Assembly: GCF_018860425.1 (NCBI RefSeq) | Contig: NZ_JAHKPI010000002.1 | Location: 82,158 to 146,157, forward strand | Source: Marinobacter sp. F3R08 | GTDB taxonomy: Bacteria > Pseudomonadota > Gammaproteobacteria > Pseudomonadales > Oleiphilaceae | Reading direction: 5' to 3' | Length of the DNA stretch: 64,000 bases | In this document: one piece after another, positions 465 through 27,873 of the stretch | Position numbering within the stretch: position 1 is the stretch's first letter | How the letters are laid out: the number at the start of each line of letters is the position of its first letter | Made by a program: the position numbers and the translations under genes | The notes under the pieces: model-generated | Seen by the model: only the letters and a program-made list of their open reading frames with translations | Told to the model about the DNA's origin: nothing | Database searches by the model: none

Positions 465-526
465 AACCCTGGCGGGGCTTTCTCCGTTAGGGGATGGTTC
501 CGCCTCCACTGAGAAGGAATCATTTC
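465..526 (+). promoter_or_regulatory. leader switch L1 (divergent member)
   Basis: P1 hairpin arms are CCCTGGCGGGG and CTCCGTTAGGGG. A downstream TTCC can pair with the GGAA of the ribosome binding site. No convincing loop-tail pairing is visible here, so this is a weaker member of the leader family that precedes about twenty genes in the window. Confidence 0.5.
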
Positions 527-958
527 ATGCCAAAGACCCTAGTTGTTGAAACCAACGCAGGGAAGTTGCAGGTCCAAGCGCCAAGCTTCGTGGCCGTGCA
601 GATCACCCCGGAATTCATCAGTCGTTTGAAAGAGCTTCGCGATCTTCCTGATTACTACGACCTCACCGAGGTTCGTTGTGAAGTGGATCTGAAGACTGAA
701 ATGATTGATGGCGACACTCTGGTTCTCCCAGAGATGGTCGTTACATCCGGACAATTCTGGTTCACAGGAGAGTTGCGAAACACTGAGGATGAATGCGTTT
801 GTTCTCACAGCATCTCAACCATTGACTGGAACTACGTAGATCAGCGCCTCAATGCTCCAGACGACGATAACCTTATGGTTGTTGCCGGTACGGACGAGGA
901 TGTAGCTCACCTACGACAAACCTACCTGGATAAGCTGGCCAACGACGAAATAGTCTGA
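527..958 (+). CDS. hypothetical protein
   Basis: Not recognised. The 143-residue acidic, soluble protein has no signal peptide or membrane segment. The upstream in-frame ATG at 494 lies inside the leader hairpin. The ATG at 527 follows GAAGGA with good spacing and is preferred. It is the first gene of the block after two-stem element copy 1 and has its own structured leader. The C-terminal half is rich in Asp and Glu. No catalytic motif is visible. Confidence 0.7.
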   Translation: MPKTLVVETNAGKLQVQAPSFVAVQITPEFISRLKELRDLPDYYDLTEVRCEVDLKTEMIDGDTLVLPEMVVTSGQFWFTGELRNTEDECVCSHSISTIDWNYVDQRLNAPDDDNLMVVAGTDEDVAHLRQTYLDKLANDEIV

Positions 959-972
959 CACCAGATATCTGC

Positions 973-1043
973 AAACCCCAGCGGGGAGTCATCTCTCCGT
1001 AGGGGAGGTGTCTCTCCTCCATGACTGATGAAGGAGCAATGCA
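973..1043 (+). promoter_or_regulatory. leader switch L2
   Basis: P1 is CCCC-AGC-GGGGAG with CTCTCC-GTA-GGGG. Loop CATCTC pairs with GAGGTG just 3' of P1, giving a pseudoknot. A following CTCC can instead pair with the GGAG of the ribosome binding site at about 1030. Confidence 0.65.
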
Positions 1044-1607
1044 ATGGGATACTTTTCCTGGAAAACCGCAGACACCAACGAATCCATTGGCAATATCGAT
1101 TCTGCCAGACCGGCACCAACGGTCTATATGCTGTCTCCCAATGGGAATCCCCCGTATGCGGAGCCTGCTTATGAGGGCTATGGACGATTTGCCAATAAGG
1201 ACGCCCATGAGTATTTGCTGGAAATGAATGCCGAAGATCTCGGTATAGATTTCTACAGCTTGTCTTGCGAAGAGCGCCGGCTGGCGGGCATAGCTCTGGA
1301 AGTAGGGAATGTGTACGTGCATGCCGACACTGGTGAGCGCTGGCACATTTTCCATGATTACCGGCACGTCCTCGATGCCAAATACTTCAAAGGTAATTTT
1401 GCTGAAGTGATACCAGAACTTGGGGACACCCCAAATAACCTCATTGAGCGCGGTGTTTTGTTGCCGCGTGCAATACGAGAGGAACTTGGGCTTAGATTTC
1501 CCCTCAAGTTTTCTTTCAGCCGGGGTGCAGTGTATGAAGATGTACCTGCATCTGAAGAATGCCCATACCAAGGGTTCTTCTTTCCGGGGGAGGGTGAGGA
1601 TGAGTGA
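1044..1607 (+). CDS. conserved hypothetical protein (GYFSW..TADTNESI start)
   Basis: A 187-residue soluble protein beginning MGYFSWKTADTNESI. I associate this opening with conserved proteins of unknown function on phages and conjugative elements, but I cannot name the family. AAGGAG lies 8 bases upstream of the ATG. The end overlaps the next start by 8 bases (ATGAGTGA), so the two are probably translationally coupled. No membrane segment or catalytic signature is apparent. Confidence 0.7.
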   Translation: MGYFSWKTADTNESIGNIDSARPAPTVYMLSPNGNPPYAEPAYEGYGRFANKDAHEYLLEMNAEDLGIDFYSLSCEERRLAGIALEVGNVYVHADTGERWHIFHDYRHVLDAKYFKGNFAEVIPELGDTPNNLIERGVLLPRAIREELGLRFPLKFSFSRGAVYEDVPASEECPYQGFFFPGEGEDE

Positions 1608-1884
1608 GCTTCGGCTTGCAAATCAGTCCTTCATGGTACGCTACCCAGTAGAGCAATACCGGGACAGCGACATGAAAGAAATCAAAATCCGCTTTCATGA
1701 GCGGGAAACTATGCCTGACATGCTGGAGAAACGCGCCAAGGAACTCGACATCACTATTGAGCAATTGGTAAAGCGTTTTATCTGCACAGGTATGCAAGAT
1801 TACGAAACGGAAGATGGCCCAGCCTTGCCGGGGGAGTCACTTGATGACTTCTTTGTGCAAAACAGAGTCCTGAAGCCGAAGTAG
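1600..1884 (+). CDS. small protein with a ribbon-helix-helix-like pattern
   Basis: A 94-residue protein. The longer in-frame extension back to 1420 lies inside the previous gene and is rejected. The ATG at 1600 overlaps that gene's stop. Residues about 26-63 (KEIKIRFHERETMPDMLE..AKELDITIEQLVKRFI) fit the beta-strand, helix, turn, helix layout of RHH/CopG-type DNA-binding proteins. The next gene is PemK-like, so this could be the antitoxin of a pair. That role is inferred from order and pattern only. Confidence 0.6.
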   Translation: MSELRLANQSFMVRYPVEQYRDSDMKEIKIRFHERETMPDMLEKRAKELDITIEQLVKRFICTGMQDYETEDGPALPGESLDDFFVQNRVLKPK

Positions 1885-1926
1885 TAAAAAATCCAATCAA
1901 TCCCCCTGAAAGGGCTGGAGGTCACT

Positions 1927-2301
1927 ATGAGCGACCTTAAAGCCCTTCTTGGGGCTTTTCTGTATGCATGGCTGCCTGAGGCTGAAAATCCTCATCGGCC
2001 TGGCCCGAAATTCCGTCCCACACTTGTTGTGGATGTTGATCCGGACGCCAGACAAATCTGTTTGGCGTATGGCACCAGCCAAAAAACGGATCGCAACGGT
2101 CGAGGAGAAATCACCTTTGCTAGCGACGAAATTGACGGTCTTACCAAAGACACTAAGTTCTGCCTGGGAACCACATACTGGATTCCGGTTAGCGCTGAGT
2201 ATCTTTGCAAAAATGAATCCGCCAACAAACTCTCAGTTATCGGCCAAATCCCGAGTCGTCGCACTCAGGAATTGCACATGCGGCTGCAAGAGATTGGCTA
2301 A
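1927..2301 (+). CDS. PemK/MazF-like protein
   Basis: A 124-residue protein. The segment PGPKFRPTLVVDVDPD, then ICLAYGTSQKTDR, resembles the RP.LVV...AYGTSQ core of PemK/MazF-type endoribonuclease toxins and relatives. The ATG at 1927 follows GGAGGTCACT. It lies 42 bases after the RHH-like gene, an order usual for type II toxin-antitoxin modules. Some proteins of this fold on mobile elements are not toxins, and the catalytic residues cannot be confirmed by eye. Confidence 0.55.
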   Translation: MSDLKALLGAFLYAWLPEAENPHRPGPKFRPTLVVDVDPDARQICLAYGTSQKTDRNGRGEITFASDEIDGLTKDTKFCLGTTYWIPVSAEYLCKNESANKLSVIGQIPSRRTQELHMRLQEIG

Positions 2302-2352
2302 ACACCTTCACGGGGAAGTCCTCTTCCTCGTGTAGCTTTGCTCTGAAACCAC

Positions 2353-3008: not shown

Positions 3009-3083
3009 AACCCCACGGGGGATCGAGTTATCCCCGTCCTGGGGGTGGCTCGTTCCTCCTCAAAACAGTAGAGGAAATGAGCA
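3009..3083 (+). promoter_or_regulatory. leader switch L4
   Basis: P1 is CCCCACGGGGGAT with ATCCCCGTCCTGGGG. Loop CGAGTTA pairs with TGGCTCG (7 bp). In the alternative state TTCCTC pairs with GAGGAA at the ribosome binding site, extended by GCTC/GAGC. The two pairings share TGGCTCG and cannot coexist. Confidence 0.72.
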
Positions 3084-4238
3084 ATGCAAAATCAAATTGT
3101 ACAGAGCAACGACAGTGACCTGAAAGACATGATGGAAGAGCGCCTGGACATCTCCGCTTCTCCCATCATGAACTACCATGACGGCATCGTTAAAAAGATC
3201 TCCGCTACGAAATACCTGTATGGGTATCTGGCAGACGATCAGGATGCTGAAAATCCGCTGGAAGAGTGGGATGGAGTAGGTCGCGTTTACACAGCACATC
3301 GCTTTGGCCAAACCCATGGCGAAATGCAGGAAGCGCTGGCGCTCGATAGCGACTGGGAGCCAGATTATGAGTTGTCTCATGACTTCCCGGACGTGCTGAA
3401 GACCCATTGGGTCAAAGCAGCTGCCGAGGACAGCGATTTCCAGCAGTGGTGTCACGAGAACGGACGGCCTCCTGAAGATTCGGAGAAACTCCCCTCGTAC
3501 TACCTGAACAAAGCCCGCCGATTTTGGCGGGATACAGGTGGTTCAGATAATTATCTGTATAACGCAGATGATGTCTGGGACTTCGAAGCCGTGATGGGAA
3601 CTGCTGAAAAAGCTGCTTATAAAGAGCTTCTTGAGGCCGGCAAAATCGGCGATCCCGATCGTGCTGTCCTTGATTGCTACGAGCATTCAGGTGTTGCCTG
3701 GTCGCTTTCTGGCGGAGGGATGCAATGCCGCTGGGATACGGCCAATGGAGCTGGCGTCTGGGTTCCAGATGAAAGTGCCCGTGAAGAGATTCATCGACGT
3801 GGTGATGAGGTGTACGCCTTTGGCCAAGTTGTTGAGGTTTCTGGCCTGATTGGTGGGAACCGCAAACCATTCTTTTTCAAGCTCGATGAAGAGTATGGAG
3901 GAGTGGAGTCACTGCGGTTTGAGACCTGGTATGAAGCCTATGAGGCTCTACAGAGTCACATCGCACACAACAAATTGCGCCTGCCCAGGAAGAAGGCTGA
4001 GAGGGCTGCGTTGCAAGTTCGAGGCAGGGAAAGGGCAGTAAAAGAAATCGCCCAGAACTGTGTTGAGCTCTACAACGACTACCTCAATGGACGGGTATTC
4101 GGTATTGTCGTCGCCACCTTCGAGGTGAACGATGAAGGCGAGCCGGAACTTCAGGACGATGACGCCGTATGGGGCTTCTATGGCGACGATGACGCCTATG
4201 ACAGCCTAAAGCAAGAAATCGAAGCTCGGGACGACTGA
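3084..4238 (+). CDS. hypothetical protein, 384 aa
   Basis: Not recognised. Acidic soluble protein (start MQNQIVQSNDSDLKDM) with many aromatic residues. It has no signal peptide, membrane segment or nucleotide-binding loop. The start follows GAGGAAATGAGCA. It ends in DDDDAYDSLKQEIEARDD just before a strong terminator, so it closes the first transcription block. A Trp/Tyr-rich middle (YYLNKARRFWRDTGGSDNYLY) suggests a folded domain of unknown type. Confidence 0.7.
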   Translation: MQNQIVQSNDSDLKDMMEERLDISASPIMNYHDGIVKKISATKYLYGYLADDQDAENPLEEWDGVGRVYTAHRFGQTHGEMQEALALDSDWEPDYELSHDFPDVLKTHWVKAAAEDSDFQQWCHENGRPPEDSEKLPSYYLNKARRFWRDTGGSDNYLYNADDVWDFEAVMGTAEKAAYKELLEAGKIGDPDRAVLDCYEHSGVAWSLSGGGMQCRWDTANGAGVWVPDESAREEIHRRGDEVYAFGQVVEVSGLIGGNRKPFFFKLDEEYGGVESLRFETWYEAYEALQSHIAHNKLRLPRKKAERAALQVRGRERAVKEIAQNCVELYNDYLNGRVFGIVVATFEVNDEGEPELQDDDAVWGFYGDDDAYDSLKQEIEARDD

Positions 4239-7046: not shown

Positions 7047-7114
7047 AAACCCTGACGGGGGTATCTACTCCCGCAGGGGGTAGGTGCCTCCTCTTTCCTA
7101 ATGAGGTACTTACC
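7047..7114 (+). promoter_or_regulatory. leader switch L6
   Basis: P1 is CCCTGACGGGG with CCCGCAGGGGG. Loop GGTATCTA pairs over 8 bp with tail TAGGTGCC. The same tail, as AGGTGCCTC, pairs with GAGGTACTT, which contains the ribosome binding site. Loop and ribosome-site segments look alike (GGTATCTA, GGTACTTA) because both complement the tail. Confidence 0.78.
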
Positions 7115-7264
7115 ATGAAAAAGATCATCATTGTTGCTATTGCTGCTTTTACCATTCAGATGACGTTCGCATTCAATGACGCTGCCGATAACGCAGCTGA
7201 GACTGCAGCTGAAACTGCTTGTGAAAAGCGCTACGAAAACAACATCGAGGTGATGTGCAAGTAA
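7115..7264 (+). CDS. small exported protein, 49 aa
   Basis: Starts MKKIIIVAIAAFTIQMTFA, a short signal peptide (basic start, hydrophobic core, probable cut after TFA). A 30-residue acidic mature part follows, with repeated AAETAAETAC and two cysteines (AETACEKRYE, EVMCK) that could form a disulfide. It has a full leader switch and ribosome binding site GAGG, which supports it as real despite its size. Function unknown. Confidence 0.65.
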   Translation: MKKIIIVAIAAFTIQMTFAFNDAADNAAETAAETACEKRYENNIEVMCK

Positions 7265-7716: not shown

Positions 7717-7732
7717 ATTGCCCGAGTGCTTT

Positions 7733-7817
7733 TCGGTTTGGGTACCAAACTCAAAAGTATTCACTCCCCAGCGGAGCGATCAGGCAGCTGACCTGGATCT
7801 TTGATCAAGCACAGCAA
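7733..7817 (+). repeat. two-stem repeat element, copy 2 (long form)
   Basis: Upstream stem GGTTTG-GGTAC-CAAACT, then CTCC-CCAGC-GGAG, then CAGG-CAGCTGA-CCTG (7781-7795) and the tail TTGATCAAGCACAGCAA. Shares the long form with the copies at 11333 and 19679. Confidence 0.75.
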
Positions 7818-7822
7818 ATCTT

Positions 7823-7890
7823 AACCCCCCAAACGGGAGCATCATCTCCCTACAGGGGGTGGTGTCTCCCCCGACTTCAGGAGACATTTC
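7823..7890 (+). promoter_or_regulatory. leader switch L8
   Basis: P1 is CCCCC..GGGAG with CTCCC..GGGGG. Loop GAGCATCA can pair with TGGTGTCTC (one bulge). TGTCTCC pairs perfectly with GGAGACA at the ribosome binding site of cobS. The two pairings overlap. Confidence 0.72.
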
Positions 7891-8868
7891 ATGTCCAACC
7901 AAAACGTTCGTCAAACCGAAGCTACACCTGTAGTTGATCTGTTTGGCATCGAAGCTCCCAAAAAGGTCACTGCGGAAAAGTTTGCAGATGATCAAAACCT
8001 ACACATTCCCAAGCGCGATGAGCACTACGTTTTCCGTAAGGAATTCGTTCGGGAAGTTTTGGCTTACATCCAAAAGCCGCATAACGATGCCATGTTGGCC
8101 TTCGGTCACACCGGCACAGGTAAGAGCTCCGGCTTTAACCAACTTCTGGCACGGTTGAACTATCCCACGGAGGAAGTCACCTGCATGGAAGATATGCGGT
8201 TTACTGACCTACTTGGTCAGTTTGTGTTGAAAGCTAAAAGCCCTGGCGAGGTGCCTCAGATGACGTGGGTCGATGGTCCACTGACTCGTGCTGCTCGCTA
8301 TGGCCATGCATTGATCATTAACGAGTGGGATCTGATGGAGCCGGGTGAACTGGCCGGCCTCAATGATCTGCTCGATGGTCGCCCACTGATGATTGCTCAA
8401 AATGGTGGTGAAGTGATCGATCCGCATCCTGATTTCCGACTGTTTGCTACTGGCAACAGCGCGGGCTCCGGCGATGAGATGGGTCATTACCAGGCAGTGA
8501 AGACACAAAACCTCGCTGCCATGGATCGCTACCGCGTGATCGAAGTGGATTATCCTGAGCCTGAAGTTGAAATGAACATTTTGGCTCGGGTTGCCCCGAA
8601 GCTTAATCCAGAGCTTCGCGATGGCATGGTTAAGGTCGCCAATGAAATCCGGACGCTGTTTAAGGGTGAAAACCCCGAGGCACAAATCGGCATCACAATG
8701 TCCACACGGGTCCTCCGTCGTTGGGCGATGCTGACACTGGATTTCAAAGGAGCTAAAAACGCATCAGGTTATGCCTTGGATATCGCTCTGCTTCGCAGGG
8801 CGGATAAAGAGGAAAGGGAGGCCGTCAGTCGCATCTGTAAGGATGTTTTTGGTGATCTCTGGTCCTGA
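7891..8868 (+). CDS. cobS: CobS-like MoxR-type AAA+ ATPase
   Basis: A 325-residue AAA+ ATPase. Walker A is GHTGTGKSS (about residue 71), Walker B region ALIINEWDLM (about 140) and sensor-like LFATGNSAGS (about 188). The name comes from the cobaltochelatase subunit. The relatives on SXT/R391 and IncA/C elements are not tied to cobalamin synthesis. Here it stands with a DUF3150 protein and a CobT-like VWA protein, the usual MoxR-VWA pairing in which the ATPase remodels a target bound by the VWA partner. The target is unknown. ATG 7891 follows AGGAGACATTTC. Confidence 0.85.
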   Translation: MSNQNVRQTEATPVVDLFGIEAPKKVTAEKFADDQNLHIPKRDEHYVFRKEFVREVLAYIQKPHNDAMLAFGHTGTGKSSGFNQLLARLNYPTEEVTCMEDMRFTDLLGQFVLKAKSPGEVPQMTWVDGPLTRAARYGHALIINEWDLMEPGELAGLNDLLDGRPLMIAQNGGEVIDPHPDFRLFATGNSAGSGDEMGHYQAVKTQNLAAMDRYRVIEVDYPEPEVEMNILARVAPKLNPELRDGMVKVANEIRTLFKGENPEAQIGITMSTRVLRRWAMLTLDFKGAKNASGYALDIALLRRADKEEREAVSRICKDVFGDLWS

Positions 8869-8965: not shown

Positions 8966-9035
8966 AACCCGACAGGGGTCTTAACCCCTGCTGGGGTTGA
9001 GCCTCTTCGGGAACCAACATTCCTTAGGAGGAACA
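8966..9035 (+). promoter_or_regulatory. leader switch L9
   Basis: P1 is CAGGGGT with ACCCCTG, closed by CCC/GGG. Loop CTTAA pairs with TTGAG in the tail. TTCCT pairs with AGGAA around the AGGAGGAA ribosome binding site of bet. Confidence 0.65.
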
Positions 9036-10043
9036 ATGACTCAAGTTGCAGAACAAACTGCCAATACCGTTGCTACACAAGAGAAGGGCAAGTCCCTTAT
9101 CGCGAAGATGGCTGGAAAGTTTGGCGTTGACGCTGAAAAGTTCATGGTCACTCTCAAAAGCACGGCATTTAAGCAGCGCGATGGCTCTGCGCCCACCAAC
9201 GAACAGATGATGGCGCTGATGGTCGTTGCTGACCAGTACGGCCTAAATCCCTTTACGAAGGAAATCTACGCATTTCCTGACAAACACAACGGTATCGTGC
9301 CTGTTGTAGGGGTTGATGGTTGGAGCCGGATTATCAATCAACATCCTCAATTTGACGGTGTTGAGTTCCGGTACAGCGACAACATGGTTCAGATGCAGGG
9401 TGCGTATAGCTCCGCCCCAGAGTGGATTGAAGCGGTCATGTACCGCAAAGATCGAACTCGCCCCATAGTCGTCCGTGAATATTTGGATGAGTGCTACAAG
9501 GCCGCCAGTAACCGCAGTGGCCCATGGCAGTCTCATCCGAAGCGCTTTCTGCGTCACAAAGCGTTTATTCAGGGTGGTCGAATCGGCTTTGGTTTTGTCG
9601 GGATCTATGATCAAGACGAAGCGGAGAACATAGTCGGTAACACTATCGATAACGACACCGGGCAGGTTGTCCAGATGAAAACGCAGCGCCGTGTTGTTGA
9701 GATGGATGATGAAAAGTACAAACGATTCATCGAAACCCTCATTCAGCGTGGTAAAGCGGAAGGTTGCTGGCCCTCCATTAACCAACTCCTGGAAGAACGA
9801 TTCCAGCACAATCCGGCGCGTTTGCAAGAAGCGAAACAACGGATCTCAGACGCCGAGTTTGAAGCTTTGAATGCAGCCGATTTCAAGGAAGAAAAGAAGA
9901 AGCCGGCAAAGGGCGCTACGAAGGGGCAGGAAGCGCATGCTGACAAACCTGAAGAGCCGCCTGTAGATGAAGATCCTGAAGCTCAGTTCAACGCAGAATC
10001 ATCTGCTGACGCTGGCCCGCAGGGATCACTTGATATGGGCTAA
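9036..10043 (+). CDS. bet: Bet-type single-strand annealing protein (RecT superfamily)
   Basis: A 335-residue protein. The start at 9036 follows TTAGGAGGAAC, and the frame upstream to 8997 is leader. The core (MMALMVVADQYGLNPFTKEI, PVVGVDGWSRIINQ, then RKDRTRPI and GPWQSHPKRFLRHKAFIQ) matches lambda Bet-like proteins, which coat single-stranded ends and anneal complementary strands. The last 70 residues are acidic and Lys/Ala/Glu-rich. With the exonuclease gene next downstream and ssb nearby it forms a Red-like recombination set, as on SXT and IncA/C elements, where such genes produce hybrid elements. Confidence 0.9.
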   Translation: MTQVAEQTANTVATQEKGKSLIAKMAGKFGVDAEKFMVTLKSTAFKQRDGSAPTNEQMMALMVVADQYGLNPFTKEIYAFPDKHNGIVPVVGVDGWSRIINQHPQFDGVEFRYSDNMVQMQGAYSSAPEWIEAVMYRKDRTRPIVVREYLDECYKAASNRSGPWQSHPKRFLRHKAFIQGGRIGFGFVGIYDQDEAENIVGNTIDNDTGQVVQMKTQRRVVEMDDEKYKRFIETLIQRGKAEGCWPSINQLLEERFQHNPARLQEAKQRISDAEFEALNAADFKEEKKKPAKGATKGQEAHADKPEEPPVDEDPEAQFNAESSADAGPQGSLDMG

Positions 10044-10086: not shown

Positions 10087-10188
10087 AATCCCGAGGGGCT
10101 TGCGTCCCTTTGGGGAAGCCGTTTCTCCAAACCAAGGTTCAGTTGATCCCTTTTGGGGTTGGCTGAGTCTCCTTAACTGGAGGTTCCT
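10087..10188 (+). promoter_or_regulatory. leader switch L10 (tandem form)
   Basis: P1 is CCCGAGGGG with CCCTTTGGGG. Loop GGCTT pairs with AAGCC directly 3' of it. A second short motif (TCCCTTTTGGGG) follows. CTCC pairs with GGAG before the exo start. Confidence 0.62.
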
Positions 10189-11208
10189 ATGAAAATAGTC
10201 GCGTTCGATCAAAGAACCGATGAATGGTTGTTATGGCGAAAACAAGGTGTCACAGCCTCTGAAGCCGCGATCATTATGGAAGACTCACCCTATATGACGC
10301 CTTGGCGTCTTTGGGCGGAAAAAGTCGGGCTGGCGGAACCAGATGACTTGTCGAAAAACCCCTTTGTTCAATACGGCATTGAGCATGAGGATGTTGCTAG
10401 ACAGGCATTTGAAGATCGCTATCCAGGCGAAGTGGCATTGCCAATATGCGCTGAATCAGACGAAGAGTCGGTTTTGCGTGCTTCCTTTGACGGCGTGATC
10501 AGTCAGAGGAGGCCGGTGGAACTGAAGTGCCCTGCAACAAAGACGTTCGATGATATCCTCATGAACGGAACCGATTCCGCAGCTTACAAGCTGTATTGGC
10601 ATCAGGTTCAGCACCAGATGTACGTGTCTGGCGCTTCTGAGGGGTTCCTGGTGTTCTACCACGACGAACGAGATCTCCAGATCTTTCAGATTGGCCGCGA
10701 TGAAATTTACATTGAGCGGCTGGTCAAGAAAGCGAAAGAGTTCTTTGAACGCGTTAGAAGTCGCAAGCCACCTGAGAAAGATCCAGAGCGTGACATTCTT
10801 ATCCCAACCGGCGACGCCGCCGAAAAGTGGGTGGAAGCGTCCGAAACGGTGAAGTTCTACGATGCAGACATCAAGGAGTACCAGAAGAAGATCGAAGCAG
10901 CCAAAGCCAAGCGAAAAGAGGCTGAGGACACTTTGAAAAATCTTTTGGGTGACTTCCATACAGCGGAGTACAACGGCGTTCGCGTCAATCGTCACTTCCG
11001 CGAGGGAAGAATTAACCTCCAAGCATTTCTGAACGATAACCATCCGGATGCCGATATCTCGAAGCTTGAATCCTATAAGGAAAAAGGCTCAGAGGTTTTC
11101 CGGATTACTGTAACGGACAATACATTGCCTGCGTGGAGCTGTGATGAATCAGCCTGGGAAGAGGTTGAGGAATTCAAGGAAAATCACGAGCAAAGTATGT
11201 TCTGGTAA
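10189..11208 (+). CDS. exo: YqaJ/lambda-type 5'-3' exonuclease
   Basis: A 339-residue PD-(D/E)XK exonuclease. Visible motifs are RTDEWLLWRKQGVTASEAA (N-terminal family signature), the acidic GIEHED near residue 64, SFDG near 98 and the metal site VELKCP near 110, then YWHQVQHQMYVSG. It degrades one strand of DNA ends so that Bet can load. Residues 215-260 form a Lys/Glu-rich coiled region and the tail is family-specific. It follows bet with its own leader rather than by overlap. Confidence 0.9.
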   Translation: MKIVAFDQRTDEWLLWRKQGVTASEAAIIMEDSPYMTPWRLWAEKVGLAEPDDLSKNPFVQYGIEHEDVARQAFEDRYPGEVALPICAESDEESVLRASFDGVISQRRPVELKCPATKTFDDILMNGTDSAAYKLYWHQVQHQMYVSGASEGFLVFYHDERDLQIFQIGRDEIYIERLVKKAKEFFERVRSRKPPEKDPERDILIPTGDAAEKWVEASETVKFYDADIKEYQKKIEAAKAKRKEAEDTLKNLLGDFHTAEYNGVRVNRHFREGRINLQAFLNDNHPDADISKLESYKEKGSEVFRITVTDNTLPAWSCDESAWEEVEEFKENHEQSMFW

Positions 11209-11235: not shown

Positions 11236-11332
11236 GAGTATTTTCCCCAATTCAGGCAAAAAAAACGCCGCCTCCTGCAATTAATTGGCGCGTGATTCAC
11301 TCATTCTATTAAAGAGTCCTTTTCGGTTTGCA
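11236..11332 (+). promoter_or_regulatory. possible promoter with A-tract motif
   Basis: AAAAAAAACGCCGCC at 11258-11272, then TTGGCG (11285) and TATTAA (11307) spaced 16 bp, before two-stem element copy 3. The A-tract/CGC motif is shared with 6491 and 19612. Confidence 0.4.
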
Positions 11333-11410
11333 GTGACAAACCAAAGAGGATTCCCTCCCTAGCGGAGCGATCAGGCAGCTGGCCTGGCCCTACGGCAAGA
11401 ACAGCAATTC
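11333..11410 (+). repeat. two-stem repeat element, copy 3 (long form)
   Basis: Stems GGTTTG/CAAACC, CTCC/GGAG and CAGG-CAGCTGG-CCTG (11372-11386), then the tail CAAGAACAGCAATTCAAAAA. Confidence 0.75.
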
Positions 11411-11417: not shown

Positions 11418-11477
11418 AACCCATTGGGGGCACTAACCCCCGATGGGGATTGGTGCCTCCTCTTTGAGGAGCACGCA
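11418..11477 (+). promoter_or_regulatory. leader switch L11 (best example)
   Basis: P1 is CCCATTGGGGG with CCCCCGATGGG. Loop GGCACTAA pairs over 8 bp with tail TTGGTGCC. The alternative is TGCCTCCT with AGGAGCA, which buries the ribosome binding site. TGCC is shared, so only one state can form. Confidence 0.82.
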
Positions 11478-12470
11478 ATGAAAACTGAGATTAAGAACCT
11501 CGACAAGCTGGTATTGGTTAACCTGGATATCGATATCTGGAGCGGCCAAGCGAAGCTACAAGCATCCGATCTGAAGCGAATTTCCGTTGAAGATCTTCCC
11601 CCCGAAAGCCTAGCCAGTCTCGGTTCCAAGCGTTTGTGTAATAAAGAGCACCTGAAAGTGTTCTCAAAGCTCAAAACTCGGGCCAATCGCGCTGTCACTG
11701 ATCATGGTCGTCCTTTTTTGGGTGGCTATGCCTATCCAAGTGACCGCAGTCAGGAACTCGAAGGTCAGTTGATCCTAATTGAGCAAGAGTACCTGGAGGC
11801 AAAGCGCCAATTCCTGAATCGCTATGATCAGGCAGTTGAAGACTGGATTAACGAGAACCCGGATTACGCGGAAGCGATCCGTGCTGGGGCTTTGACCCGA
11901 GCAGAAGTGGCTGAAAGGCTTAACTTTGGTTTTCAAATCATCAATGTTCAGCCGACTGACTCTCCGGAAGCTCAAGTGCGACTGAAGAAGTCGGTTCAGG
12001 GCGTGGGTGATGCACTGGTCGATGAGATTGCCCATCGAGCCAATGAGTTCTTCGAGAAGTATCTTGTTGGTGCAGAGCAGGTGTCTACACAGACTCGGCG
12101 CACGCTGAAAAACATGCGGGACAAGGTGTCCGGCATGGCGTTCTTGAACGGCAATTTGCTCCCTATGGAGCAGCTGCTGAATGAGATGCTGCGGGGATAC
12201 GCAGAGCATCAGGGGAAAAAGCACGTAACCGGTGAAGACTTCAATAGGATTCTCGCCGCTACGCTGATCCTCAGTGATCGAAATAAACTCGAACGCTATA
12301 CATCGGGTGATCTCAGCCTGGAAAACCTGCTGAGCTCGATGTCTGGTAACAAGAAAGAAGAGGAAGAGCCGGAGCAGCAGGAGGAATCCTCTGCATCCAG
12401 CGAATCTGTTGAAGCCCCAGCGACCACCGCGAATGATGGTGATTCTGAGGAAGAAGACTACTTCTTCTAA
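11478..12470 (+). CDS. DUF3150 protein
   Basis: A 330-residue protein, start MKTEIKNLDKLVLVNLDIDIWSG after TGAGGAGCACGCA. The opening VNLDIDIWSGQAKL and the helical body with an acidic Glu/Ser-rich tail (EEEPEQQEESS) are typical of DUF3150, which I know as the companion of cobS- and cobT-like genes on conjugative elements. It lies directly upstream of the CobT-like gene. A scaffold or substrate adaptor between the ATPase and the VWA protein is plausible but unproven. Confidence 0.72.
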   Translation: MKTEIKNLDKLVLVNLDIDIWSGQAKLQASDLKRISVEDLPPESLASLGSKRLCNKEHLKVFSKLKTRANRAVTDHGRPFLGGYAYPSDRSQELEGQLILIEQEYLEAKRQFLNRYDQAVEDWINENPDYAEAIRAGALTRAEVAERLNFGFQIINVQPTDSPEAQVRLKKSVQGVGDALVDEIAHRANEFFEKYLVGAEQVSTQTRRTLKNMRDKVSGMAFLNGNLLPMEQLLNEMLRGYAEHQGKKHVTGEDFNRILAATLILSDRNKLERYTSGDLSLENLLSSMSGNKKEEEEPEQQEESSASSESVEAPATTANDGDSEEEDYFF

Positions 12471-16543: not shown

Positions 16544-16607
16544 TTTTGTGCCCCTGGCACGAAACGGGTAGCTGACCCGACCTACTACTGGTAAGTCCAG
16601 CAATTCA
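16544..16607 (+). repeat. two-stem repeat element, copy 4
   Basis: GTGCC-CCT-GGCAC, CGAAA linker, CGGG-TAGCTGA-CCCG (16565-16579), tail AAGTCCAGCAATTCAAAAA. Confidence 0.75.
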
Positions 16608-16609: not shown

Positions 16610-16671
16610 AACCCATCAGGGGTGACTTCCCCTGGTGGGGAAGTTGCCTCCCGAAGAACACGGAGCGCAAC
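16610..16671 (+). promoter_or_regulatory. leader switch L16
   Basis: P1 is CCCATCAGGGG with CCCCTGGTGGGG. Loop GTGACTTC pairs over 8 bp with GAAGTTGC. The overlapping TTGCCTCC pairs with GGAGCGCAA, covering the ribosome binding site up to the start codon. Confidence 0.8.
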
Positions 16672-17151
16672 ATGAATAACTCTCAATTCGAGACAAAGCT
16701 CACCATACGTTGGTGGGCAAACGATGAGTCCAATGATCAGATCAATGAGTCGGACAAAGGTTCGCTCTTTGACTATTCAATGGACGTGATCAGCTCAATG
16801 GTTTCTAGCGGTTTGACTGAAGGAGATCTTGGTATCACGGTGATTGGCGATGAACATTGCGCCTATCTCGGCTACTGGGAATTCAAGGAACAAACTAACG
16901 AAGCCAAAACATATTCACTGCCGTTCGGCGTGAATCTCCAAATATCCAGCGATGGTGCTGGCCAAATGTCCTCTGAGCTGGCTAAGCAGTTCAGCCTTGA
17001 GGATGGCCTTATCGATGAGAAGGGCGAGGCCACTGCTGACGCGCTGGAAGCTCTGCTTCTTGCCATGGGTTGTGCTGGTGTCGACTTGGATGATCCCAAG
17101 ATTGTCTCAGCGCTCACATCTGCTGTTGACCAAATTGGCCAAAACATGTGA
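16672..17151 (+). CDS. hypothetical protein, 159 aa
   Basis: Not recognised. An acidic soluble protein starting MNNSQFETKLTIRWWANDES. The C-terminal part is helical (EATADALEALLLAMGCAG). The ribosome binding site GGAG is 11 bases before the ATG inside the leader clamp. The next gene follows after 12 bases, so they probably share a transcript. Confidence 0.65.
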   Translation: MNNSQFETKLTIRWWANDESNDQINESDKGSLFDYSMDVISSMVSSGLTEGDLGITVIGDEHCAYLGYWEFKEQTNEAKTYSLPFGVNLQISSDGAGQMSSELAKQFSLEDGLIDEKGEATADALEALLLAMGCAGVDLDDPKIVSALTSAVDQIGQNM

Positions 17152-17412: not shown

Positions 17413-17474
17413 AACCCAACGCGGGTGCGATGCACCCGCTGGGTGTGTCGTGCCTGCCTGTTCAGGAGGCACCT
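17413..17474 (+). promoter_or_regulatory. leader switch L17
   Basis: Hairpin GCGGGTGC/GCACCCGC within CCC/GGG. Loop GTGCGATGCA can pair over 10 bp (with G-U) to TGTGTCGTGC. The alternative GTGCCTGCCTG/CAGGAGGCAC is nearly perfect and buries the ribosome site. Confidence 0.75.
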
Positions 17475-18500
17475 ATGCTCAACAATCAAATCGCGCTCTT
17501 CGATCTCACGGACTTCGAAGAGGAGGTCATCGAGAAACCGGATCTGGATTCTTATGACATCGTGATTGTCGCGATGAGCGGCGGGAAGGATTCTCTGGCG
17601 AGTTTGTTGGATCTCATCGAGGCGGGCGTTCCGCTCTCCAAAATTGAGATGTGGCACCACTCGGTCGATGGCCGGGGGGAGGACGCCAACCCGCTTTTCG
17701 ACTGGCCAGTGACCGAAAGTTACTGTGAAAAACTCGCAGAAGCGCTCGGAATCCCGCTGTACTTCAGCTGGAAGCAAGGTGGACTAGAGGGGGAGATGCT
17801 TCGTGAGAACTCTCTTACTCGCCCAACCAGCTTTCAAACACCTGATGGTACTTTTGAGGCCGGTGGTGAGAGTGGAAAACCGTCGACAAGGCGGAAGTTT
17901 CCTCAGCTCGCCGCGTCTCTGAATACAAGATGGTGTTCAGCGGTTTTCCGAACGCATTAAATTGTCAAAAAAAGCCAAACCCGTTTCGCCCATAAGCGAA
18001 CGCTGTTTGTAACCGGGGAACGTGCCGAGGAAAGTGCGGCCCGCTCGAAGTATAAAACCTTCGAACCCCACCGTGCAGACCGGCGTCACGGCCGATCCAA
18101 ACGGCATGTGGATGCATACCGCCCGGTCCATTCGTGGTCTGAGCAGGAAGTGTGGGACATCATCAAACGGCATGGGATTAACCCCCATCCGGCCTACAAG
18201 TTGGGCTGGGGTCGCTTGAGCTGTATGACCTGCATTTTTGGATCTGCAGCCCAATGGGCAAGCGTTAAAGCCATCGATCCAGATCGGTTTGAGCGCATTG
18301 CTGCCTACGAGGAAGAGTTCGGGGTAACCATTCATAGAACTGAATCGGTTCGCCAGCGCGTTGAAAAGGCCAAACCTTACGACACGCTTGATCCATTGCT
18401 CATCGAGCAGGCTCTCAGCACGGAGTACCTGGAACCCATCATTGTGGAGAACTGGGAACTGCCAGCGGGAGCCTTTGGTGAAAGCAACGGCCCGACTTAA
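17475..18500 (+). pseudogene. PAPS-reductase-like gene broken by two frameshifts
   Basis: The N-terminal part (17475-17960) has the PP-loop MSGGKDSLAS near residue 35 and continues to TRWCSAV. The C-terminal part (in frame by about 17997, to 18500) carries LFVTGERAEESAARSKYKTF, WSEQEVWDIIKRHGINPHP and the cysteine motif GRLSCMTCIF. Both are in the same reading frame, but about 50 bases between them (17941-17996) read correctly only in another frame. A +1 change near the TTTT run at 17943 and a -1 change near 17995 would explain this. The family activates sulfate-type substrates or moves sulfur (PAPS reductase, DndC relatives). As written it makes a truncated protein. Sequencing error is possible. 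A second family member is intact at 24082. Confidence 0.75.
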
Positions 18501-19571: not shown

Positions 19572-19678
19572 AACTTCCACCAGTTCCAAGGGTGAATGCG
19601 TGGTTTTAAGCAAAAAAATCGCTGCAACCTTGGTACATCAGTGGCCGACTGCTTTTAGTATGTATGTTACGAGTCTCT

Positions 19679-19770
19679 TCCGGTTTGTGGTGACAAACCC
19701 GAACGGATTCACTCCCCAGCGGAGCGATCAGGCAGCTGACCTGGATCTTTGATCAAGCACAGCAATTCAC
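19679..19770 (+). repeat. two-stem repeat element, copy 5 (long form)
   Basis: GGTTTG/CAAACC, CTCC-CCAGC-GGAG, CAGG-CAGCTGA-CCTG (19729-19743), tail TTTGATCAAGCACAGCAA identical to copy 2. An A-tract motif AAAAAAATCGCTGC (19612) and a possible TATGTA box (19659) lie upstream. Confidence 0.75.
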
Positions 19771-23030: not shown

Positions 23031-23090
23031 TTGTGCCACTGGCACGAAACGGGGAGCTGCCCCCGGCCTTTGAGCAAATACAGCAAATCA
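23031..23090 (+). repeat. two-stem repeat element, copy 6
   Basis: GTGCC-ACT-GGCAC, CGAAA linker, CGGGG-AGCT-GCCCCCG (23050-23065) where the lower stem has changed to G-C pairs on both sides, tail AAATACAGCAAATCAAA. It starts 9 bases after the PilZ-like gene. Confidence 0.72.
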
Positions 23091-23153
23091 AACCCTATCG
23101 GGGCTCTTTTGCCCCGTTGGGGCGAGGAGCTCCTCTAATCAAGGAGACCTTCC
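23091..23153 (+). promoter_or_regulatory. leader switch L23
   Basis: P1 is CCCTATCGGGG with CCCCGTTGGGG. Loop GCTCTTT pairs with GAGGAGC. CTCCT pairs with AGGAG of the ribosome site. Confidence 0.7.
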
Positions 23154-23564
23154 ATGTCATCAATGATGCTATTCGTAGACCTGAAATCGTCTAACGAACT
23201 CACCAAGAACGTCCGGGAAAAGCTCGAAACCGCCCTGCGGACAGTTGTCCTGACTCGGAGCTATTTGCTTCCGATCTGGGATCTGAAAGTAGACCCGATT
23301 CCGGAATCCTCGTTCTATGACTTCCAAGCACAGATTTACTACGTCTCGGATGAACCCGAGATCGATGGTGTTGAATCTTACCTGGATGTCAGACTCTTGT
23401 TCGATCTGCTTCTGAAAGGCCCGGCCAATCCAAAAGGCGTAATCACTGATTACTACCTTGGGGCGGCCTGCGACGCCCCCGACCCCTGCAAAGGCTTCCA
23501 GCGGGGTGACGCACCTTTTGAACCTGCGATCGAGCAACCTATGCCCACGCTGGCGGACCTGTAG
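23154..23564 (+). CDS. hypothetical protein, 136 aa
   Basis: Not recognised. Starts MSSMMLFVDLKSSNELTKNV after AAGGAGACCTTCC. Soluble, acidic, with a Pro-rich end (DAPFEPAIEQPMPTLADL) and GAACDAPDPCKGF. The first of two genes in the unit behind element copy 6. Confidence 0.65.
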   Translation: MSSMMLFVDLKSSNELTKNVREKLETALRTVVLTRSYLLPIWDLKVDPIPESSFYDFQAQIYYVSDEPEIDGVESYLDVRLLFDLLLKGPANPKGVITDYYLGAACDAPDPCKGFQRGDAPFEPAIEQPMPTLADL

Positions 23565-24017: not shown

Positions 24018-24081
24018 AACCCATGAGGGTGCGCTAACCCTCAGTGGGTTGGCGTGCTCTCCTGAGCTACAGGAGAACGTC
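24018..24081 (+). promoter_or_regulatory. leader switch L24
   Basis: P1 is CCCATGAGGGT with ACCCTCAGTGGG. Loop CGCTAA pairs with TTGGCG (one G-U). TCTCCTG pairs perfectly with CAGGAGA at the ribosome site, extended by GCGT/ACGT. Confidence 0.8.
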
Positions 24082-25941
24082 ATGACCGTTCAAATTCATA
24101 ACTCAAGATATGAACGTATCCAGCAGAAGGCCGAGCCGGTGATCAATCACCTAATCGACCTTCTTAGAAGGGGATATGCACTTTCAACTGCCTCATCTTT
24201 CGGGAAAGACAGCTCCGTGGTTCTGGTTCTGTTCTTTGAGGCGTTGAAGCGAGCGAAGGCACAAGGCATCTCGCTGCCCCGGTGCTATATCTCTCATTCA
24301 AATACCGGTATCGAAAATCCAGCGATGGATAGCTATACCGGTGAAATGTTGTCGTTTGTTGATCGGTTCATTGAGCAGCACAATCTTGACGTGGAGGTTG
24401 TGCTGGCGGAACCCAGCCTTTCGGCTTCATTCATGTATGCGACAGTCGGACGTGGCAAGTTGCCGCGATTTGTCGACTCTAAAGCTCGTGAGTGTTCGGT
24501 TGATTGGAAAGTAAAACCCCAGCAAAGGGCACTTAAGCGCATTCGTAAGCAAGCCGGCGAAGGTCGAGATCTGGTTGTCCTGGTGGGCACCCGGAATGCG
24601 GAATCAGCTGTGCGAAACGAGCGAATGGAAAATGCGGGTCACTCAGCAACCTCTCTGGTACCGGAGGAGGGCCAAACGGCACTCTACTCCAATGCGTGCA
24701 TTGCGGATTGGGAAATGACGGATATCTGGGAACTTCTGATGGCTTGCGACAGCGAACGTAACGGTGTTTACGCCACCTACGTCCCGAACTTCGAGCACAC
24801 CCTGGCGCTGTATAAAGCATCAAATGAAGGTACCTGTGCTGTGATAGTTGGAGACGGTGGCAATAAGGCAGCTTGTGGCTCGCGCCATGGCTGCGGAATT
24901 TGCACCGTCGCGGGGAAAAAGGACCGCAGTATGAGTGCAATGATTGAGTCCGAGCCGGAAACCTTCGGGTATTTGGACGGTATCAATCGACTAAGGAACT
25001 TCATCGTTAGAACACAGCACGATTTCGATCGTCGCGAGTGGTTTCAGCGTCGGATTTCTGATGTTGGCTACGTTGCTCTCAGTCCAGACAATTACTCATC
25101 CCGAATGCGGCGTGATCTGCTTCGTTACATGCTCACTCTCGATGTTCGAGAGCAGGAGCGGGCGGAGGAGCACAGCGCTGCTTTGCATCGAGGCGACATA
25201 CCAGATACACCGGTAAATCGGCGTCTCGCGCACCCCCAATTCGAATGGATTACACCGAAGATGTTGCTGGCGATCGATTTCGCCTGGGGCATTTACGGTC
25301 AATTCAGTCATGCCTTTCCAGCTCTCAGGGAGTGGTATGAAGTAGTCCATCTGGGTCGTCGCTATGAGATCCCGGAGGTTGGGGAGGATGAGTACCTGCG
25401 CATTCCTGTGCCGGAAAAACGGTACTTCTACATCGGCGCTTACGAGCACCCGTGGAAGATCGATGGTCTTCGTAACGCCTATGGCGAAGCGAAAAACCCG
25501 GCTCGCCGTCCCGATCGACCGCCGTTTGGCGCGTATCGAGATCCGGAAACCGGAGAAACCCGAAGGGTGGCCTATTTCGAGGAAAGAGATGAGCTGAGCA
25601 TCGATGGTGCAGAGGCGAACCTGTTTTTACTCGAATTCGAAGACATCTACTTCGAAACACTGGCACTGGAGAACTACGACGGCGTGCGATATCTGCTGGA
25701 TCGAGGCCTGGTCAAAGTAGGGAAGGGGCAGATTGCTACCTACGATCAGATCGCCCGGCGTGCACAGCACTGGATACGTCTGGGGCAGGACTTGAATGTG
25801 ATGGACATTCAGGACTATGCCCGAGATCACTCCATCTCCAAAGCTGAGCATTTCCAATTGATGGAAGAGCATCAGCGTCAAATCGCAGCCAATGTAGACG
25901 ACCAGTTCAATCTGGATCTGTTTGCAGAGGCTGCGGCATAA
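24082..25941 (+). CDS. DndC-like sulfurtransferase / PAPS-reductase-family protein
   Basis: A 619-residue protein. PP-loop SSFGKDSSV near residue 38, and the DndC-type cysteine motif CGSRHGCGICTVAGKKDRSM near 264. A long C-terminal part (330-619) has no family I can name. DndC provides sulfur for DNA phosphorothioation together with DndA, B, D and E. None of those is in the window, so this is an orphan. A related gene at 17475 is broken. Comparable orphan genes occur on IncA/C-type elements. A role in DNA or RNA sulfur modification is inferred only. The in-frame ATG upstream (24049) is inside the leader. Confidence 0.75.
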   Translation: MTVQIHNSRYERIQQKAEPVINHLIDLLRRGYALSTASSFGKDSSVVLVLFFEALKRAKAQGISLPRCYISHSNTGIENPAMDSYTGEMLSFVDRFIEQHNLDVEVVLAEPSLSASFMYATVGRGKLPRFVDSKARECSVDWKVKPQQRALKRIRKQAGEGRDLVVLVGTRNAESAVRNERMENAGHSATSLVPEEGQTALYSNACIADWEMTDIWELLMACDSERNGVYATYVPNFEHTLALYKASNEGTCAVIVGDGGNKAACGSRHGCGICTVAGKKDRSMSAMIESEPETFGYLDGINRLRNFIVRTQHDFDRREWFQRRISDVGYVALSPDNYSSRMRRDLLRYMLTLDVREQERAEEHSAALHRGDIPDTPVNRRLAHPQFEWITPKMLLAIDFAWGIYGQFSHAFPALREWYEVVHLGRRYEIPEVGEDEYLRIPVPEKRYFYIGAYEHPWKIDGLRNAYGEAKNPARRPDRPPFGAYRDPETGETRRVAYFEERDELSIDGAEANLFLLEFEDIYFETLALENYDGVRYLLDRGLVKVGKGQIATYDQIARRAQHWIRLGQDLNVMDIQDYARDHSISKAEHFQLMEEHQRQIAANVDDQFNLDLFAEAAA

Positions 25942-26401: not shown

Positions 26402-26412
26402 ACAGCCAGTGA

Positions 26413-26442
26413 CCGGTTATGGGCCTTCGGGCCTATAACCGG
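26413..26442 (+). terminator. hairpin after the lipoprotein gene
   Basis: CCGGTTAT-GGGCC, loop TTC, GGGCC-TATAACCGG. Strong stem without a T-run. Confidence 0.5.
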
Positions 26443-26634: not shown

Positions 26635-26690
26635 TTTTGTGCCCCTGGCACGAATCAGGTAGCTGACCTGGCGTAACTGCAAGCACAGCA
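26635..26690 (+). repeat. two-stem repeat element, copy 7
   Basis: GTGCC-CCT-GGCAC, CGAAT linker, CAGG-TAGCTGA-CCTG (26656-26670), tail GCAAGCACAGCA. It combines stem 1 of the short form with stem 2 bases of the long form. Confidence 0.75.
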
Positions 26691-26698
26691 TCCCACCT

Positions 26699-26757
26699 AA
26701 ACCCATACGGGGCCTTCCCTGTATGGGGTGGCTCCGTGCTTAGTCCGGAGACATATC
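26699..26757 (+). promoter_or_regulatory. leader switch L25
   Basis: P1 is CCCATACGGGG with CCCTGTATGGGG. GGGGCC can pair with GGCTCC. CTCCG pairs with CGGAG of the ribosome site. Confidence 0.65.
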
Positions 26758-27045
26758 ATGTCTAAGAACATCACCGCCTGGAATCTGAGTAGTAATCAGG
26801 AACTCGGTTTCGTTGGGGATTCCCCGCTCATTTGTCCCGAATGGGCCGTGGTCTATAGCCACGCCCAAGAGACAAACCAGCTCAGCAAAGCACTCCGGAT
26901 CATTCAAGATCATCCGGAGCAGCTTGTCGAAAAGCTGTGTGAGCACTTCCCCCTTGTGTACGGCCAACTGTCTGTTGGTTGTGGCGATTGGGCAGCACTT
27001 CGTGAGCAGCCTGAAGAGTCAGCCCTCACACCATTGCCGCATTGA
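26758..27045 (+). CDS. hypothetical protein, 95 aa
   Basis: Starts MSKNITAWNLSSNQELGFVG after CCGGAGACATATC. Soluble protein with a helical middle (LSKALRIIQDHPEQLVEKLC). Not recognised. First gene of the last leader-controlled block. Confidence 0.6.
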   Translation: MSKNITAWNLSSNQELGFVGDSPLICPEWAVVYSHAQETNQLSKALRIIQDHPEQLVEKLCEHFPLVYGQLSVGCGDWAALREQPEESALTPLPH

Positions 27046-27131
27046 TCTGCTGATTGGTCTTGCAGCTTAAGCAACATACTGCCGCACGAGCCTCCGGGTT
27101 GGTGTAGCGGAACAAACAAGGAGAAGATGCT

Positions 27132-27785
27132 ATGGGCTATTCCCATCACTTCACGAAAAACCGTGCCCCTTCCACCAGCGAGTGGAGGATCATTAAGAAC
27201 ATCGCGGTGTATCTCATAGAGAATACTCCTATGCGAAGTAACTCTGCCGGAGGGTATTGTGTAAACGATCCTCTCCGAGGAGCAATCGCAACCTATGTAG
27301 AACGTGAAAAAACCTCGATCAATGAGTTCACGGACACGGTGATCAATATCAACCATAAAGAACCCAATGTCGTTCAAACAATGGGTGGCCACCCGGCCAT
27401 CATCTTTGACGGCAAGGGAGATTTGGGATCAGAACCGTTCGTTTTAACTTGTCTATCCCCCGAGGCAGATCGTGAAGTCGCTCCTGGGATGAGAACATGT
27501 AAGACGAATCGGATGCCTTACGACCTGCTCGTATGCGCAATGCTAATTCTGGTCAATCATTCCATCCCGGATCTGCTTGTGATCAACAGTGAAGGGGGAA
27601 TAGAGGATTGGGAGCCGGCGCTGCGTTTAGCGCGGACGTTCGATATGAACGCCAGGCTTCCCGATACCATCGATTTCGATGCCAGCTGTGATCCAGAGCC
27701 AATGTCTCTCGTTGAGCTCTGGCAGGAAATCCCACCTAAGAGTCAGTTTGTTGGAGTCGACACCGGCCCCGGACTGTACTTCTAA
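27132..27785 (+). CDS. conserved hypothetical protein, 217 aa
   Basis: Starts MGYSHHFTKNRAPSTSEWRI after AAGGAGAAGATGCT. The MGYSHH.T..R opening resembles conserved proteins of phages and mobile elements with unknown function. Soluble, mixed alpha/beta, with EPFVLTCLSP and YDLLVCAMLILVNHSIPDLL. The upstream gap has a loose hairpin (CGAGCCTCCGGGTTGG) but not the standard leader. Confidence 0.62.
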   Translation: MGYSHHFTKNRAPSTSEWRIIKNIAVYLIENTPMRSNSAGGYCVNDPLRGAIATYVEREKTSINEFTDTVININHKEPNVVQTMGGHPAIIFDGKGDLGSEPFVLTCLSPEADREVAPGMRTCKTNRMPYDLLVCAMLILVNHSIPDLLVINSEGGIEDWEPALRLARTFDMNARLPDTIDFDASCDPEPMSLVELWQEIPPKSQFVGVDTGPGLYF

Positions 27786-27795
27786 ACCTTTCTCA

Positions 27796-27873
27796 ATACC
27801 CGTACTGGGGTTCTCGCATTTCCCCAGTCGGGGGGAGTGTGTGAGCCCCTTCAGCCTATGAAGGAGTTACACA
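27796..27873 (+). promoter_or_regulatory. leader switch L26
   Basis: P1 is CCCGTACTGGGG with CCCCAGTCGGGG. Loop GGTTCTCGCA pairs with TGTGTGAGCC (9 of 10 with G-U). In the other state CCTTCA/TGAAGG plus GTGT/ACAC close over the ribosome site of the methylase gene. The tail is shared. Confidence 0.78.

Follow-up and report, generated by a model that had tools for sequence, protein, structure and literature searches.

Leaders of a recombination and maintenance module

The stretch of DNA analysed here, called the window, comprises 64,000 nucleotides of Marinobacter sp. F3R08 (NZ_JAHKPI010000002.1, positions 82,158 to 146,157) and lies in contig C26 of a 4.23 Mb genome. Between about 0.5 and 29 kb it carries a recombination and maintenance module with genes for CobS-like AAA, RecT/Bet, YqaJ exonuclease, DUF3150 and CobT/VWA proteins, together with SSB, Toprim, PAPS reductase and a C5 methyltransferase. 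The original prediction, made from the letters of the window, described a family of RNA leaders in this region, in which a hairpin (P1) encloses a segment A that can pair with a segment B just 3′ of P1, and B can also pair with the Shine-Dalgarno region (C). This observation is confirmed, and the leaders are more widespread than first described. At least 14 genes of the mobile DNA element are predicted to have their own short RNA leader with two mutually exclusive folds, which would mask or free the ribosome-binding site of the downstream gene.

The leaders share the order (5′ to 3′) CCC-x-GGGG-A-CCCC-y-GGGG-B-CYCC-linker-GGAG..C..ATG, from which three helices can be drawn. P1 is formed by CCC-x-GGGG paired with CCCC-y-GGG, P2 by GGGG-A-CCCC paired with GGGG-B-CYCC, enclosing loop y, and P3, the clamp, by B-CYCC paired with region C, often extending through the ATG. 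P1 is predicted to exclude P2, and P2 to exclude P3. Because the C and G runs that build P1 also build P2, each with another partner, the constant CCC/GGGG/CCCC/GGGG array has the look of a cassette for strand exchange.

The leaders of the window are listed below. R1 is a leader model that draws 7 of its 32 training rows from the window, and A:B and B:C values are duplex energies in kcal/mol.

465–529, + strand: looser leader, P1 467–492, P2 471–504, ATG 527; R1 E 2.4e-5, A:B −5.7, best duplexes without common B bases
974–1046, + strand: leader, P1 976–1005, P2 983–1017, ATG 1044; R1 E 3.5e-4
2355–2423, + strand: leader, P1 2357–2385, P2 2362–2398, ATG 2421, reached by the clamp; A:B −9.6, B:C −14.6, R1 E 0.18
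3009–3086, + strand: leader, P1 3011–3044, P2 3017–3059, ATG 3084; R1 match, both helices, fold
7048–7117, + strand: leader, P1 7050–7078, P2 7054–7093, ATG 7115; R1 E 1.2e-10, compensatory change relative to the Marinobacter salicampi orthologue
7824–7893, + strand: leader of the CobS-like AAA gene, P1 7826–7859, P2 7835–7870, ATG 7891; R1 match, fold, orthologue comparison
8966–9038, + strand: leader of the RecT/Bet gene, ATG 9036; R1 E 5.1e-4, fold
10087–10191, + strand: aberrant leader of the YqaJ/Exo gene, a P1-like cassette and then a second hairpin, ATG 10189; R1 E 0.13, fold
11418–11480, + strand: leader of the DUF3150 gene, P1 11420–11447, P2 11426–11460, ATG 11478, reached by the clamp; R1 E 4.4e-14
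12473–12538, + strand: leader of the CobT/VWA gene, P1 12475–12505, P2 12482–12518, ATG 12536, reached by the clamp; R1 match, both helices, orthologue comparison
14532–14597, + strand: leader, P1 14534–14561, P2 14538–14576, ATG 14595; R1 E 3.3e-15
15731–15795, + strand: leader, P1 15733–15759, P2 15738–15773, ATG 15793, reached by the clamp; R1 match, both helices, fold
16610–16674, + strand: leader, P1 16612–16639, P2 16616–16654, ATG 16672; R1 E 2.3e-12
17413–17477, + strand: leader, P1 17415–17443, P2 17421–17457, ATG 17475, reached by the clamp; R1 match, both helices, fold
23091–23156, + strand: leader, P1 23093–23122, P2 23100–23133, ATG 23154; R1 E 5.2e-12
24018–24084, + strand: leader of the PAPS-reductase-like gene, P1 24020–24048, P2 24025–24061, ATG 24082, reached by the clamp; R1 match, both helices, fold
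26700–26760, + strand: leader with weak A:B (−4.6), ATG 26758; R1 E 2.1e-6
27797–27876, + strand: leader of the C5-cytosine methyltransferase gene, P1 27799–27832, P2 27807–27849, ATG 27874; A:B −23.0, B:C −16.3, R1 E 0.085

Among the 17 leaders named in the original prediction, 14 show both helices with at least three B bases in common, the exceptions being 8966, 10087 and 26699. R1 matches 14 of the 17 at an E value of 0.01 or lower; here the exceptions are 2353, 10087 and 27796. The leader at 8966 shows P1 and the clamp by folding, and the one at 10087 lacks a clean clamp. We also applied a P1 detector that is blind to A:B and B:C, requiring only a P1 hairpin, a Shine-Dalgarno sequence, an ATG and an open reading frame of at least 40 codons. 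When run on positions 1 to 32,000 of the window, with bases above 32,000 excluded, it returned 26 places on the + strand with a single one on the − strand, or 25 after merging, some of which are chance hairpins; at 8966 it placed P1 wrongly. Across 16 loci it found 257 places on the + strand versus 28 on the − strand, a bias to which gene orientation adds.

The gene behind the leader at 17413 (window 17475–18500) may be split or interrupted: it stops at 17960, and overlapping open reading frames at 18022–18219 and 18108–18500 come next.

Own and swapped segment pairs

To compare pairing across leaders of differing sequence, duplex energies of segments from the same leader (own pairs) were set against those of segments combined between leaders (swapped pairs). 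For the 25 leaders of the window, the own A:B energy is −8.61 kcal/mol versus −5.16 kcal/mol between leaders (z −7.6), and the own B:C energy is −11.97 versus −8.46 kcal/mol (z −6.4), with none of 2,000 permutations reaching the own value in either case. An A:C control gives no signal (1,571 of 2,000 permutations are equally good), and pairing reversed A with B gives a weak one (14 of 2,000). Larger sets, in which leaders more than 70% alike were collapsed, behave in the same way. For 155 non-redundant leaders the z values are −16.2 (A:B) and −17.6 (B:C), with −0.8 for the A:C control; for 88 held-out leaders, from 20 stretches of 19 genomes, they are −11.8 and −7.7 (0 of 5,000 permutations), with controls at 1.6 and 1.3. 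The held-out leaders were found by a model, R2, whose base pairs are those of P1 only but which also scores conserved flank letters; 117 of its 120 held-out matches gave a usable hairpin, with P1 wrongly chosen in some. The proposal of a leader family in which A:B and B:C exclude each other is supported.

Differences in primary sequence between leaders had originally been read as compensatory change, which would be mistaken if the leaders were recent copies of one sequence with random drift. Within orthologous gene families (173 leaders in 35 families, pairing unfiltered), own A:B is better in 26 of 33 untied families (p = 1.8e-5) and own B:C in 22 of 30 (p = 5.4e-4). A run restricted to leaders with A:B of −4 or lower and B:C of −6 or lower gives 23 of 28 and 21 of 26, a filter that favours own pairs by construction. 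The leaders of CobS, DUF3150 and CobT differ in sequence between loci, yet have similar P2 folds. Because own pairs beat swapped pairs inside orthologous families, and compensatory change also extends across different gene modules (see below), drift among recent copies does not account for the leaders. The predicted A:B and B:C pairings and their conservation are shown by these comparisons.

Column-wise analysis on a MAFFT alignment gives a modest P1 covariation signal: 6 of 500 shuffles score as high, and shifting the register by one column does about equally well. The variable lengths of A, B and C may be the cause, hence the use of duplex tests. Both helices are present in 166 of 255 leaders of the 16 loci (orthologous copies not collapsed), with B bases common to both in 164 and a clamp reaching the ATG in 87; in the non-redundant set the corresponding counts are 90 of 155, 88 and 45.

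Spread of the leaders and elements upstream of them

An alignment scan for relatives on genome contigs yielded seven loci, a single-protein scan none, and a scan of viral contigs three short loci that were left out of the counts. The closest CobS relative among the seven is that of Marinobacter salicampi (88% identity). Genes for CobS, Bet, the exonuclease, DUF3150 and VWA occur in identical order on plasmids of Shewanella, Citrobacter, Aeromonas and Escherichia, typed in PLSDB as IncC, IncA, rep_cluster_71 and IncC, respectively. From these relatives we infer that the window module is part of an integrated conjugative element.

In the genome of origin, 17 of 18 model matches at an E value of 1 fall within C26:82620–108917, and the other one (E 0.78) lies elsewhere. 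Beyond it, the leader model gives matches on each of six plasmids and in the genomes of many other bacteria. In whole records at E 0.05, with counts that include a few reverse-strand echoes of P1, an IncA/C plasmid has 27 matches and pAsa4c 32; one plasmid each of Vibrio penaeicida, Comamonas, Methylomonas and Pseudomonas aeruginosa has 33, 13, 12 and 5, respectively, and a Providencia rettgeri genome has 22. Within the class, 52 of 369 genomes have matches at E 0.01 and 35 of 369 at E 1e-4, and within the phylum 21 of 398 at E 0.001, 4 of these outside the class. Single near-threshold matches may be due to chance; clusters of matches are hard to explain in that way.

Of 111 proteins downstream of held-out leaders, 89 were compared with Pfam, among them RadC (10), DUF3577 (6), DUF6094 (5), DUF3275 (4) and RecT (2). 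These proteins indicate that the leader is also used by a second module with different genes, one that we take to be typical of SPI-7/ICEclc-like elements. At one locus (L029 16859–16926), a leader-like match (R1 E 5e-4) lies directly 5′ of the bet leader, where the related plasmid L031 has ssb, and is perhaps a relic of gene loss.

Some leaders are preceded by a further element, AGCUG...CAGC. In the first set it occurs within 110 nt upstream of 46 of 67 far leaders (more than 60 nt from the upstream open reading frame) versus 3 of 92 near ones, with a background of 3.5%; with similar leaders collapsed, the counts are 21 of 36 versus 2 of 48. It was found at 0 of 46 far leaders of the held-out family. 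In the window the element reads GGNAGCTGNCC...CAGCA before operon-first leaders, and in IncA/C-type plasmids GCGATAGCTGGTCGCCAAAAACAAACAGC; by eye, many copies resemble a small pseudoknot of the H type whose loop is rich in A. The window copies are as follows.

7781–7815, + strand: AGCTG...CAGC before an operon-first leader
11372–11405, + strand: AGCTG...CAGC upstream element, weak DUF3085 RNA resemblance (E 0.17)
16565–16601, + strand: AGCTG...CAGC upstream element, weak DUF3085 RNA resemblance (E 6.2)
23051–23084, + strand: AGCTG...CAGC upstream element

Further copies are seen by eye near 398–440, 19720–19765 and 26655–26690. A similar block of about 100 nt (a CGGTTTG...CAAACC inverted repeat, then AGCGGAGCGATCAGGCAGCTG) stands 5′ of three operon-first leaders, at about 7720–7820, 11310–11410 and 19675–19770, and could be a common promoter or operator. 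Other operon-first leaders have, by eye, a GTGCC...GGCAC palindrome in the position of the CGGTTTG block.

At gathering score, the 4,227 families of Rfam 15 give no match on leaders in the window and none in the four plasmid loci L028–L031, and in 20 short loci they give a group II intron only. Assignment to the radC RNA (RF01754) was considered and rejected: this family has no match in the window or the four plasmid loci at gathering score, its best E value in the genome of origin is 0.69, and at E 1e-4 it occurs in 1 of 321 genomes, compared with 35 of 369 for the leader model. The radC RNA (PMC2864571) occurs in mobile elements of the type that carries the leader, but it is a separate 149-nt RNA. 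The two meet in genome G262, whose four radC RNAs are at L101 8078–8226, 9586–9738 and 11331–11476 and at L102 4634–4783. Three adjoin a model-detected leader, two lying 15 and 25 nt upstream and one, in L101, overlapping a leader's 5′ end; behind the fourth, a CCC..GGGG..CCCC..GGG cassette can be seen by eye. In this genome the radC RNA seems to be attached 5′ to the leader, in place of the AGCUG element.

The DUF3085 RNA (RF02959) has a consensus AGCUGG...CCAGC ending in CAACCCacCGGG, which resembles the upstream element together with the first strand of P1, but it does not contain the P1 3′ strand, P2 or P3. As an identity for the leader it was likewise rejected, with a best score of 24.3 bits against a cut-off of 40.6. 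It stays below cut-off in six genomes or records (best E 0.12) and was found in 0 of 321 genomes, in a scan without a match anywhere. According to a 2026 paper, DUF3085 is often encoded beside RadC on plasmids (PMC12826799), and the words Rfam and RNA motif are absent from its available text.

Predicted states, rival readings and known systems

Energies were predicted for a filtered set of 159 leaders (A:B of −6 or lower, B:C of −8 or lower and three common bases), reduced to 146 by dropping identical ones. Mean values are −18.4 kcal/mol for P1, −25.1 for P2 and −34.6 for P1 with P3; P1 with P3 lies below P2 in 144 leaders and P2 below P1 in 140, an order partly built in by the filter. Eight chosen full leaders have folding z-scores of −3.2 to −6.3 relative to shuffles, and P2 is the minimum-energy fold of one of them (L042:27094–27159). 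From the energy order, the full leader should rest closed, with the Shine-Dalgarno sequence inside P3, joined there by the ATG in 87 of 166 leaders.

On this basis we consider it fairly likely that each leader is a self-contained translational on/off switch that uses the segment logic of an ermC-type attenuator. In the ground state, P1 and P3 would coexist, the B:C clamp would hold the Shine-Dalgarno sequence and the site would be closed; in the alternative state, P2 would form, freeing the Shine-Dalgarno sequence and opening the site. Because P2 leaves it free, the 5′ CCC-x strand, the sole segment besides C outside P2, would be a natural trigger site, and its capture, or the unwinding of P1, should flip the switch to open. 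Candidate triggers are a ribosome ending the upstream gene, where leaders are closely spaced, or a factor, encoded by the element, that acts on the constant C/G cassette. We infer P2 as the form of A:B, control of translation by the helices, the identity of the open state and the trigger.

The original prediction instead placed A:B as an H-type pseudoknot on intact P1 that would open the site, with the B:C clamp closing it, in the style of ColIb-P9 repZ. The A:B and B:C pairings on which that reading relies are real, and pseudoknot-activated translation is described for repZ of plasmid pCol1B9 in the available passages of PMC9977716. However, the spacer between P1 and B has a median of 1 nt and P1 a median of 11 bp. 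By pseudoknot geometry, a 1-nt spacer is too short to span an intact 11-bp helix, which disfavours a pseudoknot on intact P1. The best A:B duplex also enters the innermost P1 bases in nearly all 146 leaders (A being cut to permit this), and in 138 of them A:B runs on through CCCC:GGGG into one nested hairpin, whose loop y, the P2 apex, measures 3 to 5 nt in 95 of 101 leaders that remain after collapsing the set at 75%. Without the filter, P2 is continuous in 99 of 155 leaders, compared with a mean of 28.6 when B is swapped (maximum 36 in 20 shuffles), in 16 of 25 versus 4.7 when the window is taken by itself, and in 60 of 117 held-out leaders versus 11.3. A:B thus probably takes the form of the nested hairpin P2, and we regard the pseudoknot as improbable, although it could be a transient nucleation step.

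The trigger invites other readings. A ribosome finishing the upstream gene might occupy the CCC strand and so turn the next gene on. TAA or TAG stands immediately 5′ of P1 in 72 of 159 first-set leaders (48 and 24; not always stops of called open reading frames), and among first-set leaders that lack the upstream element, 59 of 110 have a stop no further than 13 nt from P1. An A before CC is, however, also common without a stop (AAA 26, CAA 12 of 159). Only 12 of 111 distinct held-out leaders have a stop within 13 nt, and 46 of 111 lie at a distance of over 60 nt from any upstream open reading frame that was called (those of at least 60 codons being considered). The terminating ribosome fits the first family and not the held-out one, so that it cannot be the general trigger, and we hold such coupling to be unlikely. 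Similarly doubtful is a purely kinetic scheme with no ligand or factor, in which P1, P2 and P1 with P3 would form successively during transcription and only young transcripts would be open. The predicted energies do drop in that order in nearly all 146 leaders, but this is owed partly to the filter and partly to the pairs added as the RNA lengthens. It is very improbable that P2 is an intrinsic terminator with P1 as its antiterminator. A U-rich tract follows P2 in some leaders (4 of 6 in both L040 and L115), but at least six T within 8 nt behind P2 occur in none of the 14 window leaders and in 10 of the 146 in the first set. P2 is therefore not generally a terminator, and this reading would leave the conserved B:C clamp unexplained. 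In some elements (L115, L040, L116 and L105) the linker from P2 to the Shine-Dalgarno sequence is a long T-run, which could be a terminator or an S1-binding stretch.

Along with the scarcity of upstream stops in the held-out family, several observations weigh against a switch between nested P2 and P1 with P3. P2 lies about 10 kcal/mol above P1 with P3 (median 9.6), so the open state would need a trigger or co-transcriptional trapping, and these energies are predictions for isolated RNA. P2 is discontinuous in 56 of 155 unfiltered leaders, chance hairpins among them. In the first set, some weak signal stays in the reversed-A control (z −2.5 to −2.9). The pairing statistics support A:B and B:C without separating a nested P2 from a pseudoknot, and a register test with an offset of at most 1 gives 4/12 versus 0.30 swapped for the window, 28/70 versus 0.23, and 22/40 versus 0.35 for held-out leaders, which at exact register give 0.07 versus 0.11.

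If the leaders act as such switches, conjugative elements with at least two gene modules might possess a private post-transcriptional regulon, in which dozens of switches with distinct A, B and C codes share the same cassette. Tentatively, and with less confidence than for the individual switch, we suggest that one element-encoded factor could read this cassette and open recombination, anti-restriction and methylation genes jointly, probably at transfer. Plasmids of the IncA/C type and related ones are known as major vehicles of drug resistance, and their recombination and DNA-modification genes would have an extra layer of RNA control. No such layer on these genes was found in the available passages of a review of SXT/R391 and IncA/C regulation (PMC4542580), where the terms secondary structure, riboswitch and untranslated are absent and leaders are discussed for setR. 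The leaders would also represent a natural experiment in RNA design, with dozens of bistable RNAs per replicon that follow one logic in different sequences, and would offer a frame for two orphan RNAs described earlier, radC and perhaps DUF3085, as pieces attached upstream of the leader.

Among known systems, the repZ leader of pCol1B9/ColIb-P9 is similar in that a plasmid-borne 5′ RNA structure is needed for translation at a downstream ribosome site; as presented in the available part of PMC9977716, it differs in using a pseudoknot and an antisense RNA for one replication gene, whereas the window leaders probably form a nested hairpin and serve many genes. No description of such leaders is present among the literature matches listed, though one may exist elsewhere; the RNA family, its cassette and its use before many genes appear to be new. 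In ermC/cat-type attenuators, the ground state pairs segments 1:2 and 3:4, with the Shine-Dalgarno sequence in 3:4, and the alternative pairing 2:3 frees it. The predicted P1 with P3 and P2 of the leaders match these two states. The attenuators differ in depending on a drug-stalled leader peptide, none of which was identified in the leaders, where short open reading frames were not systematically searched. The leaders, for their part, have a constant CCC/GGGG/CCCC/GGGG cassette, present in one copy per gene before many genes of conjugative elements. By this analogy, the switching logic would be a known one, that of ermC attenuators.

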